A DNA stretch of 33,359 nucleotides from Prevotellaceae bacterium (lineage in GTDB: Bacteria; Bacteroidota; Bacteroidia; Bacteroidales; Bacteroidaceae), in assembly GCA_022508615.1 (NCBI GenBank), contig JAFLUW010000006.1, positions 1-33,359 of the forward strand, written 5' to 3'. Under the pieces are notes generated by a model that made no database searches, was not told the DNA's origin, and saw only the letters and a program-made list of their open reading frames with translations. The translations under genes and the position numbers were made by a program. Shown here piece by piece: positions 3,775 to 33,239 of this stretch (within the stretch, counting starts at the first letter, position 1; each line of letters begins with the position of its first letter).

Positions 3775-3851
3775 ATACGGAAAACTTAGTCTGAGTAAGT
3801 TTGAACTATCTCAGACTAAGTTCGAACTATCTCAGACTAAGTTTTCCGTAT
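3775..3851. repeat. Triple-unit 21-bp-period intergenic element, copy 1 (units F-R-R)
   Basis: ATACGGAAAACTTAGTCTGAG...CTCAGACTAAGTTTTCCGTAT perfect 21-nt inverted arms; internal unit CTATCTCAGACTAAG; linkers TTTGAA and TTCGAA. Confidence 0.9.
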
Positions 3852-14600: not shown

Positions 14601-14668
14601 AAAAAATTAGTCTGAGTAAGTTTGAACTTAGTCTGAGATAGTTTGAACTTACTCAGACTAAGTTTTTC
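14601..14668. repeat. Triple-unit element, copy 3 (F-F-R)
   Basis: ATTAGTCTGAGTAAG-TTTGAA-CTTAGTCTGAGATAG-TTTGAA-CTTACTCAGACTAAG with A-run left and T-run right; between convergent genes. Confidence 0.9.
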
Positions 14669-18808: not shown

Positions 18809-18879
18809 GCAAAAACTTACTCAGACTAAGTTCAAACTTAGTCTGAGTAAGTTCAAACTTAGTCTGAGTAAGTTTTCGC
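18809..18879. repeat. Triple-unit element, copy 4 (R-F-F)
   Basis: CTTACTCAGACTAAG-TTCAAA-CTTAGTCTGAGTAAG-TTCAAA-CTTAGTCTGAGTAAG; outer arms complementary. Confidence 0.92.
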
Positions 18880-22661: not shown

Positions 22662-22727
22662 GAGAAACTTACTCAGACTAAGTTTGAACTTACTCAGACT
22701 AATTTTCGACTAACTCAGCCTTTCTCG
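22662..22727. repeat. Triple-unit element, copy 5 (degenerate third unit)
   Basis: GAGAAACTTACTCAGACTAAGTTTGAACTTACTCAGACTAATTTTCGACTAACTCAGCCTTTCTC; two intact R units, third eroded, outer GAGAAA/TTTCTC retained. Confidence 0.82.
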
Positions 22728-25460: not shown

Positions 25461-25528
25461 GAAATAAGTCTGAGTAAGTTCAAACTTACTCAGAGATAGT
25501 TCAAACTTACTCAGACTAATTTATTCCG
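25461..25528. repeat. Triple-unit element, copy 6 (F-R-R), overlapping a stop codon
   Basis: ATAAGTCTGAGTAAG-TTCAAA-CTTACTCAGAGATAG-TTCAAA-CTTACTCAGACTAAT-TTATTCC; TTA at 25521-25523 is the stop of the esterase gene. Confidence 0.9.
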
Positions 25529-28930: not shown

Positions 28931-29000
28931 GGAGAAACTTAGTCTGAGTAAGTTTGAACTAACTCAGACTAAGTTCAAACTAACGCCCTGTTAGTTTTCC
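28931..29000. repeat. Triple-unit element, copy 7 (F-R-variant)
   Basis: CTTAGTCTGAGTAAG-TTTGAA-CTAACTCAGACTAAG-TTCAAA-CTAACGCCCTGTTAG; shares left flank ACAGGGAGAAACTTA with copy 5. Confidence 0.88.
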
Positions 29001-29361: not shown

Positions 29362-32316
29362 TTAACGAACAAAAACCTTCTTGCCGTCTTTTACATAGAT
29401 TCCGTGGGTCGGAACGGCAATGCGCCGGCCGCTCAAATCGTAGAGCGTAGCCTTGCTCTCGTCCTGTCCGGCAACGGTGCTGTCAATGCCCGTAGGCTCA
29501 CCGAAGCTGAAACGCAGAACGTTCACGTTTTGTCCGGCAACCGAAGCAGGCAGATAGGCCTTGTTGGCTTTCAATGTAGTTGCGTTGGTTTTGTAGAGAC
29601 CAACTTTTCCGTCAGCCATGCCCAATACGAGATAGTCCTCAGGTGTGATGTCGGTCTGTTCGGTAAGCGTGCCTTGCAGGTCGCTGCTGGCAGACTCGGT
29701 AGCCTCTGTAATGTAGAGTGTGTAGGTGTCGGCTGTGCCTTTCAAGATAGCACCGGTCTCGGCAGGAAGCGTTTCGATTTCGTTCAGTTTCAGATATTCG
29801 CCGCTAACCGAGCCTGTCAAGATTTGCAGGTCGCTACCGTCTTGTGCGCTGACGCCGAACGGCAGGTAAGTAGAGGCCCAATAGCTGCCTTCGCCCTCGT
29901 TCAAAGCGATTTCGATGTCGGTAGCCGGGATAATGTACCATGCTCCGTCCGAATCTTTGGGGTTCGGGTTCCAACTGCCAACGCTGCCGCTGCTGTATAT
30001 CACAAGGTTTTGATTGTTCCCATCCTTAATGTTGAACTGCGCTCCGCCGAGATCGACCAAACGGTAGCGACCGCCGTTTTGATATGTATCGGACAGAGAA
30101 TTGTCATTTGCAGGCTTCATGTAACCCTTCTGGTTGGGAGAGTAAATCTTGTAGCCGACTTCGCCGTTTTCCGTGCAATCTTCGAATTTCCAGATATAGG
30201 AAACATCGGTTTTTCCTGCATCCGAGGCAATGCGCTGACCATTGTTGTTCAAGCCGATCATTTTTCCATTCCCGGCATTGTCCTTGCGGAGATAGTTCTG
30301 AATGCGATAGTAGCGGCCGGCAACCATTTCAACAATGCTGTTGTCGTCAATCTGATTTAATAAAGCGGAGAGCGTAGTCATCTCGCTTTCATTATGCGGA
30401 TTGGCCGTAACGTTTTCTACTGCTGTTTGCAGCTGTGCGGAAATGGCAGTAATGCTTGTGTTTGTCCCTACAGCTCCGGCAGGTGCTTCAGAATGTGATA
30501 AATAAGCCTCGGCGCAGTTGAGCATGAATGTCGAAGGAGCAAAGAAACGGCAAGAGGAACCGTAGTCGCGAGCAGTCCAAGTTTTCAATAAGTGAAGACT
30601 TCCCTCGTTCTCGGTCTGATGATTGATGAAGTTTGTGCCGTCTAACGTGAAGCATGTTGCCCCGTCTAAATACAAGGAGGTCTGAATTTTGAGAATGTTG
30701 TTGTCGTCGGTTGTACTTAATTCAAAAGCAGAAGTCCCTTTGCGTAGAGTCATAGATTCGCCGGCAGCCTTGTTGTAAATTTTGAAACCGTCAATAAGAT
30801 TTCCGACAAAGCACCACAAATGTTCGTCTGCAATAATATTTTTCGACGAGGTAGTTAAGACTGGCGTCTGTACGTTTTTCTCGTTATCGGATACGTATGT
30901 CCAATAGTAGTTATTCTGGTTGCTATGAATGTCAACAGCATACCACGTGGCATTAGCAAAGTTTGTAGAAGCCGTAAAAGGCAAGTTCTCCTTACAAATG
31001 ACGTTTACGGTAGCATCTTCCGTGACAGTGGTATTTGTAAAGTCGTGAGAAAGGATTGTCACATAATCCTTTTCGGGAACAGACAGCGATATGTTTTTGT
31101 CATGCTCCACAATGTCGCGGGTATATTCGCGTCCGTCAATATAATAGATGAACGTAATGGTTGCGGCATTTTCATATCTGTCTACAGCAGCAGCAATGGT
31201 GGATTGCATTTCTTCCGTAATTTCGGCGATTTCGGATATTTGATAAGTATTGCCGCCGTCGGTTAGGTTATTGTAACCACCTTCCCAACTTACTACACCG
31301 TGTGCCCCGGCTGTGCCGGCCGTGTTCAAAGCCCACTTATTGGTGGACAAAACGAAAGGATAGCCGGCATCGGCTGCGTTGGACATCCGGATTTCCACAT
31401 CGTTGGTAATCGCCGAAACCAAGGCAACAGGCTTTGAGTCGCCATCGGTGGAACTTCCGATGAACTTTTCGCCGGCCACACTGTAGAAATAATATTTTCC
31501 GGTTTTTTCAGATTTGTAGATTGCCCAATGGAATTGAGAATTCGCAGGCGAAAATTTCAGATTGGGGTAACCGCTGCCGTAGGTCGAAGCAACATTGTCC
31601 GGGCATTCGGAATGGTAGATCAAGAAACCTTGGTTTGCTCCCCAATTGCCCCGATTGGTCTTCAATGTGTAGATGTGGTTGTTGTCGATTTCGTCGATCG
31701 AAGTGAGAGAGCGTCCTTCGAATTTGACCACAGCCGCTTCGATAGCAGCGATAGTTGGGTCTTCGAGATCGCCGATCTCGATAAAGCTGAACACATTGCC
31801 GGCGTCGTTAGTTTGGTTATAACCACCCCTCCAATTGAGGACACCATGACAATTTGCTTTATCGGCTACATTCAAAGCACCTGTTCCATTGGTGGAAAGC
31901 AGAAAGCGGAAAGGATCGTCCGACTCTTTGACTCTGATTTCGGTTGTATTAGTAATGGTTTCGGTCATGGGTATTGGATCGTTGTCTCCGTCGGAATGCC
32001 CCACGAACATATTGCCGGCAATACTGTATAAATAATAGAATCCAGTTTTTGCAGATTGGTAAATAGCAAAATGGAAAGCGGTGTCGTCTTCAGAAAACGT
32101 TTTGTTTACACCTGCGTTACTATAATTGGAAGCCAAATTGTTGGGAGCCGACGCGGCATCATACAATAAGTACTTCTCGTTCCCGTTATCGCGAGCTGAT
32201 TTGATAGCATACACTTTGCTATTGGATAAGTCGCTGAGCGACGCGACTGACGTCTGCGCCACTGCGCCTATGCAACCGAGCAATAGGGCGTAAAAAAGAA
32301 AAGTGATTTTTCTCAT
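29362..32316 (-). CDS. Large secreted/surface repeat protein with C-terminal sorting-like sequence
   Basis: 984 aa; signal peptide MRKITFLFYALLLGCIGAVAQ; duplicated ~180-aa module; C-terminus LYDLSGRRIAVPTHGIYVKDGKKVFVR resembles Bacteroidetes C-terminal sorting/secretion tails. Confidence 0.9.
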   Translation of the reverse strand: MRKITFLFYALLLGCIGAVAQTSVASLSDLSNSKVYAIKSARDNGNEKYLLYDAASAPNNLASNYSNAGVNKTFSEDDTAFHFAIYQSAKTGFYYLYSIAGNMFVGHSDGDNDPIPMTETITNTTEIRVKESDDPFRFLLSTNGTGALNVADKANCHGVLNWRGGYNQTNDAGNVFSFIEIGDLEDPTIAAIEAAVVKFEGRSLTSIDEIDNNHIYTLKTNRGNWGANQGFLIYHSECPDNVASTYGSGYPNLKFSPANSQFHWAIYKSEKTGKYYFYSVAGEKFIGSSTDGDSKPVALVSAITNDVEIRMSNAADAGYPFVLSTNKWALNTAGTAGAHGVVSWEGGYNNLTDGGNTYQISEIAEITEEMQSTIAAAVDRYENAATITFIYYIDGREYTRDIVEHDKNISLSVPEKDYVTILSHDFTNTTVTEDATVNVICKENLPFTASTNFANATWYAVDIHSNQNNYYWTYVSDNEKNVQTPVLTTSSKNIIADEHLWCFVGNLIDGFKIYNKAAGESMTLRKGTSAFELSTTDDNNILKIQTSLYLDGATCFTLDGTNFINHQTENEGSLHLLKTWTARDYGSSCRFFAPSTFMLNCAEAYLSHSEAPAGAVGTNTSITAISAQLQTAVENVTANPHNESEMTTLSALLNQIDDNSIVEMVAGRYYRIQNYLRKDNAGNGKMIGLNNNGQRIASDAGKTDVSYIWKFEDCTENGEVGYKIYSPNQKGYMKPANDNSLSDTYQNGGRYRLVDLGGAQFNIKDGNNQNLVIYSSGSVGSWNPNPKDSDGAWYIIPATDIEIALNEGEGSYWASTYLPFGVSAQDGSDLQILTGSVSGEYLKLNEIETLPAETGAILKGTADTYTLYITEATESASSDLQGTLTEQTDITPEDYLVLGMADGKVGLYKTNATTLKANKAYLPASVAGQNVNVLRFSFGEPTGIDSTVAGQDESKATLYDLSGRRIAVPTHGIYVKDGKKVFVR
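31171..32241 (-). repeat. Tandem ~180-aa protein module duplication inside the 984-aa protein
   Basis: Residues 26-202 vs 203-382: FHFAIYQSAKTGFYYLYSIAGNMFVGHSDGDNDPI / FHWAIYKSEKTGKYYFYSVAGEKFIGSSTDGDSKPV; HGVLNWRGGYNQTNDAGNVF / HGVVSWEGGYNNLTDGGNTY. Confidence 0.88.
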
Positions 32317-32378
32317 GTTTTTGGGTTTTAAGTTGGTTGTTTTTTCTTATTTTTGAGTGTTCTATGTGGTTGATTGCG

Positions 32379-32410
32379 CAAAAATACGGATTTCCCCCCC
32401 CCCTTCCAAG
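32379..32410 (-). promoter_or_regulatory. Promoter with G10 homopolymer in the spacer
   Basis: Minus strand CTTG (32407-32410) - N20 containing GGGGGGGGGG (32394-32403) - TATTTTTG (32379-32386). Confidence 0.75.
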
Positions 32411-32534: not shown

Positions 32535-33239
32535 CTACAAATAAAGATCGCGGGTTAGTGCGGCGTGTTCGGCCGAGCGCGAGCCGTCGGCATCGGTCAG
32601 TACGAGCGTGTCGCGCCGCGTGGCGGCGTCGGGCGACGTCGGGCTGAGGCAGAGCAGTGTGCGGCGCGGCGGCTTGGGGCTTCTGGTGACGACATCTGTG
32701 CGTCGCACGAGGGCGAAACCCTGCGCAGCGGCCTGCGACAGAAGCGTGTCGGCGCGTTGCGCGGGCAGAATCAGCGAAAAGAGGCCGTGCGGCGTGAGCA
32801 GTCGTCGGGCGGCCGTGAGCAATTCGTCGAGCGCGAGGCCTTGTGTGTGGCGCGCTTGCGCGCGACGGGCGTCGGGCGGCAGCAGGTTCTCGTCGAAAAA
32901 GGGCGGATTGCTCACAATGCAGTCGAATGGCGCGGCGGTCAGCGTGCGGATGTCGGCCGTGAGAAGCTCGATGCGCAGCCCGAAGGGCGAATGGTCGGCG
33001 TTTTCACGCGCCTGACGGATGGACGCTTCGTCGATGTCGACGCCTGTGACGCGGGCCTCGCGGTTGCGTTGGGCGGCGATCAGCGCAACGAGGCCGCAGC
33101 CGCAGCCTATGTCGAGAATGCGTGTCGCGTGTTCCACCGGCGCCCACGCGCCGAGCAGCACGCCGTCTGTGCCGACTTTCATGGACGAACGGTCGTGCCA
33201 CACGCGAAAGTTTTTGAAATCGAAATAGGGATTAGCCAT
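32535..33239 (-). CDS. tRNA1(Val) (adenine(37)-N6)-methyltransferase TrmN6 (YfiC) family
   Basis: MKVGTDGVLLGAWA, ILDIGCGCGLVALIAAQRN, DCIVSNPPFF. Confidence 0.9.
   Translation of the reverse strand: MANPYFDFKNFRVWHDRSSMKVGTDGVLLGAWAPVEHATRILDIGCGCGLVALIAAQRNREARVTGVDIDEASIRQARENADHSPFGLRIELLTADIRTLTAAPFDCIVSNPPFFDENLLPPDARRAQARHTQGLALDELLTAARRLLTPHGLFSLILPAQRADTLLSQAAAQGFALVRRTDVVTRSPKPPRRTLLCLSPTSPDAATRRDTLVLTDADGSRSAEHAALTRDLYL

Follow-up and report, generated by a model that had tools for sequence, protein, structure and literature searches.

A ten-base G tract in the promoter spacer of a secreted-protein gene from a Prevotella-like gut bacterium: a candidate phase-variable promoter

Homopolymers lying between the two elements of a promoter are known from Neisseria, where the spacers of the porA and opc promoters carry such runs and changes of one or two bases tune the transcription of outer-membrane proteins. 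The promoter described here, with a run of ten G (G10) in its spacer, shares this arrangement. However, porA and opc have sigma-70 promoters with -35 and -10 elements and belong to a proteobacterial pathogen, whereas the G10 site has -33 and -7 elements, the latter of the form TAnnTTTG, and comes from an uncultured gut member of the Bacteroidota. A first-pass annotation of this DNA had named fimbrial and opacity genes of Haemophilus and Neisseria as precedents. These examples were loose: Haemophilus fimbrial promoters carry TA repeats and Neisseria opacity genes carry CTCTT repeats within coding sequence; porA and opc are the closer cases.

The best-known examples of poly-G slippage as a strategy come from pathogens, Campylobacter among them. 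In Campylobacter jejuni, poly-G tracts of at least eight bases mediate switching, G9 and G10 being the commonest (PMC6321876). The tracts reported below resemble the Campylobacter phasome in being multi-locus, dominated by poly-G, mostly 8 to 10 bases long and directed at surface-structure genes (PMC6321876), but they occur in another phylum, are fewer (18) and lie in promoter spacers in at least four of the 18 cases. The pilus switch of Bifidobacterium breve is likewise a case of G-tract slippage controlling surface structures in a gut commensal, and its authors note that other G-tracts lie in promoter spacers; the tract measured there is, however, a coding one in a Gram-positive host, whereas G10 lies in a promoter spacer (PMC9187656). 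In Bacteroidales, phase variation has been described through DNA inversion (PMC12632263, PMC11868660). The invertible promoters of this order, like the present locus, vary or may vary surface molecules via a TAnnTTTG promoter (PMC12632263, PMC4747536), but they work by inversion between inverted repeats. No inverted repeats flank the G10 promoter, where two short palindromes both lie on one side, and an invertible promoter was rejected on these grounds. Searches for slipped-strand or homopolymer phase variation in Bacteroidetes, Bacteroidales, Bacteroidota or Prevotella found no report, which is weak evidence of absence, as most subscription papers lie outside the search. Phase variation by simple sequence repeats (SSR) is well known in other bacteria, and the G10 site is best regarded as a candidate variation on it, set on a -33/-7 promoter. 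A poly-G phasome in an uncultured gut member of the Bacteroidales would, if true, provide a second phase-variation mechanism for the order, invisible to tools that search for inversions.

The window (the whole stretch of DNA analyzed, 33,359 nt, G+C content 58%) belongs to a fragmented draft genome of 1.87 Mb in 156 contigs, 86% complete, in which tract lengths may be one base off. The host appears to be a Prevotella-like gut bacterium and its relatives metagenome-assembled genomes (MAGs) of ruminant and other gut Bacteroidales; 16S was not found in the assembly. No other homopolymer of the window is as long as G10, and no other G/C run there reaches seven bases. The -7 element next to it, TATTTTTG, fits the TAnnTTTG consensus of Bacteroidota -33/-7 (sigma-ABfr) promoters (PMC7366714, PMC12632263), and CTTG stands at the modal spacing of 20 nt (N20). 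Judged from these features CTTG-N20-TATTTTTG is a credible promoter, with the ATG of a 984-aa ORF 63 nt downstream. The anatomy proposed in the first-pass annotation, in which 10 of the 20 spacer bases form a G run ahead of this gene, was thereby confirmed ( Table 1 ).

Table 1. Positions of the features discussed; numbers without a prefix are positions in the window.
Feature	Location	Strand	Basis or remark
-33 element CTTG (TTG core 32407-32409)	32407..32410	minus	read from sequence; TTG enriched at N20
20-nt promoter spacer GAA-GGGGGGGGGG-AAATCCG	32387..32406	minus	sequence and N20 pattern counts
G10 homopolymer, putative slippage tract	32394..32403	minus	read from sequence, homopolymer counts
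-7 element TATTTTTG, fits TAnnTTTG	32379..32386	minus	exact pattern; consensus PMC7366714, PMC12632263
-7 element to start codon: predicted transcription start (~32372) and 5' UTR	32317..32378	minus	inferred from -7 position
984-aa ORF, putatively controlled gene	29362..32316	minus	ATG at 32316
Upstream gene, small-domain methyltransferase	32535..33239		its end 131 nt from the G10 tract
Palindrome clusters of the window	3786-3840, 14607-14660, 18814-18870, 22668-22700, 25470-25520, 28939-28980
Promoter tract	G10 site of window		before 984-aa secreted-protein gene
Promoter tract	C98		before outer-membrane beta-barrel protein (PF14905)
Promoter tracts	C1, C7		before two copies of conserved small RNA
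Tract overlapping expected -33 position	C85		before secreted 779-aa protein with the window protein's C-terminal tail
Intergenic tracts	C12, C36
Coding G/C tracts of 8-10	L045:11456-11463, L111:7296-7305, L113:2922-2930, L110:5368-5375, L110:7253-7261, L114:7815-7823, L114:14831-14839, L105:7958-7966, L109:722-730, L107:2799-2806, L115:10160-10167
Frame-change tracts	C88, C67, C67		secreted protein, glycosyltransferase, acyltransferase
Frame-change tracts	C90, C90, C1		hexapeptide transferase, TupA-like, lipoprotein
Small-RNA copies	C1:1-100, C7:1-100 (L042, L043)		both at contig ends; relatives L049-L076

The window holds five matches to TTG-N20-TAnnTTTG, at the G10 site and at four other promoters (the first-pass annotation had counted at least four others), where shuffles predict 0.18; none of 100 shuffles reached five. 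Across 280 kb of the same genome, TTG precedes TAnnTTTG at N20 in 21 cases, at N19 and N18 in seven each and at N21 in three (background about 3-4), and the corresponding numbers for loci from relatives are 51, 21, 9 and 5 (background about 6). By these counts N20 is a narrow spacing optimum, with a sharp mode both in the genome sample and among the relatives, and because it is narrow, adding or removing one or two G ought to have an effect. The mode also supports the earlier argument that slippage of this size would move the promoter off its optimum: G10 is placed inside the N20 spacer, where any change in length alters the spacing. A neutral tract, or one that slips without useful change in transcription, either because RNA polymerase tolerates the altered spacing or because another promoter is used, seems improbable. 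Promoters with N18 and N19 are also present in this genome, in keeping with such tolerance, but the N20 mode is strong in the genome and in the genus, and neither the surplus of long tracts across the genome nor their positions look neutral.

This excess is seen when G/C runs are counted by length, those of four to six bases in the 280-kb sample and those of seven or more in the whole genome. The sample holds 852, 124, 13 and 2 runs of lengths 4, 5, 6 and 7, which scale to about 5686 G4, 828 G5 and 87 G6 per genome, and the whole-genome count of G7 is 9. Up to this length each added base cuts the number of runs about 8.6-fold, a decay that extrapolates to 1.0, 0.12 and 0.014 runs of G8, G9 and G10. 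G/C tracts at least eight bases long number exactly 18 in the whole genome (8 G8, 7 G9 and 3 G10), against about 1.2 expected, so that G10 is both of slippage-prone length and a member of a class present above chance. The jump at lengths 8-10 has the look of a maintained set of slippage tracts. The G9/G7 ratio is 0.78 in this genome and 0.20 in the genus as a whole. An assembly or sequencing artefact, by which the true tract would be shorter or the frame breaks described below would be errors, might be suspected in a fragmented draft with error-prone homopolymers, yet it is very unlikely to account for these observations: a one-base error would still leave G9 to G11 at the G10 site, 52 of the 58 genus genomes contain long G tracts (counted as exact G9), and the excess is limited to G/C runs, A/T runs of lengths 6-10 numbering 182, 55, 7, 3 and 0 with no rise.

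Four of the 18 tracts sit 4-12 nt upstream of TAnnTTTG (P ~3e-7 under random placement), although one small-RNA promoter, present in two copies, accounts for two of them and the independent number is three. The looser pattern G8-N0-12-TAnnTTTG has five matches in this genome, one of them (C146) a coding tract, and none in the control. Among 301 family genomes, TTG-N1-3-G8-N5-11-TAnnTTTG is found at 8 sites, three of them in this genome, with no control match. Within the genus, G8 spacers occur in 14 of the 58 genomes (3 control matches), and several of the poly-G spacers of relatives precede signal-peptide genes, including those of CarboxypepD_reg and lipoprotein-like proteins. The poly-G promoter spacer is, on these pattern searches, a rare and lineage-specific feature tied to secreted proteins. 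The G10 promoter has no close orthologue in the genus. In front of the gene for a homologue of the window protein (L152, G055), an 8-base G tract precedes the -33 element by 5 nt. At another locus, L067 (G057), a G8 tract lies just upstream of the promoter and not inside it.

The tracts could instead form a fixed promoter or regulator-binding element of constant length, acting for instance through a transcription factor or DNA stiffness. The sequence context is in line with this idea, since the 3' flank is non-random, with TAA following 27-46% of G8/G9 tracts but 0-3% of G3-G6 runs (own genome and genus loci), and the four promoter tracts of this genome all read G8-10-AA[AT]T. The TAA(A) flank of tracts of eight or more bases points to a common origin of these tracts or to selection on their context. 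However, most promoters of the genome have no tract, and in the 280 kb all TTG-N18-21 spacers other than those of the G10 site and the two small-RNA sites hold runs of at most G4. Spacers with G5-G7 are absent from this genome, so that a graded G-rich promoter element is disfavoured. Also, the arrangement is rare in the family (the 8 matches above) and missing from the small-RNA promoter of relatives, tract lengths range from 8 to 11, and a fixed element would leave the frame breaks at coding tracts unexplained. A fixed element is therefore regarded as unlikely.

Coding sequence contains 11 of the 18 tracts. On the polysaccharide side, the genes concerned encode three acyltransferase-3 proteins, a GT4-type glycosyltransferase, a hexapeptide transferase, a TupA-like ATP-grasp protein and a nucleotidyltransferase-like protein, and the others encode a lipoprotein with a signal sequence and three secreted proteins with the C-terminal tail of the window protein. 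With the promoter tracts counted as well, tract genes across the genome are those of glycosyl- and acyltransferases and of outer-membrane, lipo- and secreted proteins. Five of the coding tracts are in register, and the other six mark the precise point of a frame change, the break in the TupA-like gene being less certain owing to a nearby assembly gap. In the glycosyltransferase and the acyltransferase of C67, the Pfam domains are split between two frames that switch at the tract. Slippage would be expected to leave a trace of this kind, with frame breaks clustered at homopolymers; these breaks bear on the coding tracts, the promoter tract having no frame in which slippage could show.

We consider it likely that G10 is a contingency promoter tract within a multi-locus poly-G phasome. 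The tract would gain or lose single G's during replication, and each change of length would move the -33 and -7 elements of a housekeeping promoter of Bacteroidota type closer together or further apart. Ten G give the optimal N20, and the promoter as assembled should therefore be ON; G8, G9 or G11 and longer would be weaker or OFF, and cells of one population would differ in whether they express a large secreted protein that is probably associated with the surface. G10 would act as one of about 18 tracts in the genome, working via promoters and reading frames. We infer that the tract varies in length and that transcription follows that length. Because some 18 long G-runs lie in promoters and surface-structure genes, slippage during copying is probably a means by which this bacterium turns surface genes on and off. 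Support for phase variation, which the first-pass annotation had offered as a candidate, comes from the promoter anatomy, the narrow N20 optimum, the excess of long tracts, their placement at promoters and surface genes and the frame changes at six of the 11 coding tracts. Counting against it, two of the promoter tracts drive small-RNA copies and not a surface gene, and these promoters and that of C98, with G8 and G10 tracts respectively, have N18 and not N20 spacing, which could represent OFF states or a different optimum. A wider proposal, to which we assign slightly better than even chances, is that an uncultured Prevotella-like commensal genus possesses a multi-locus poly-G phasome combining -33/-7 spacer switches, frame switches in polysaccharide and secreted-protein genes and the control of a conserved small RNA by poly-G, as an alternative or addition to invertible promoters.

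The 984-aa protein carries a signal peptide (MRKITFLFYALLLGCIGAVAQ) and a C-terminal tail, YDLSGRR...GIYVKDGKKVFVR, common to other secreted, tract-bearing proteins of the genome. It has at least 14 matches in this genome and matches in 57 of the 58 genus genomes, the nearest homologues being 31-38% identical. No match was found in Pfam, NCBIfam or PDB, and the AlphaFold model was unusable (mean pLDDT 31). The ORF is real; as to the earlier description as a surface protein, surface association is probable, judging from the signal peptide and the tail shared with other secreted proteins.

The small RNA downstream of the C1 and C7 tracts is about 90 nt long, comprises GTTTTTTCATCTCTATATAAGTTCTGTGAGG, a hairpin and a T-run, and occurs in about 43 of the 58 genus genomes, usually with one match each. 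It has no Rfam match at the gathering score. Both copies in this genome have G8 in the promoter spacer, and the promoters of this RNA in relatives have no spacer tract. Poly-G as an ordinary part of strong promoters, such as those of rRNA, was considered and rejected, given that this small RNA and not rRNA lies downstream of the C1 and C7 tracts; the tract-free promoters of relatives and the absence of G5-G7 spacers also contradict it. In addition, dispersed clusters built from a palindrome of about 21 bp (TTCAAACTTACTCAGACTAAG and its complement) lie between genes; the window holds six of them and the rest of the genome many.
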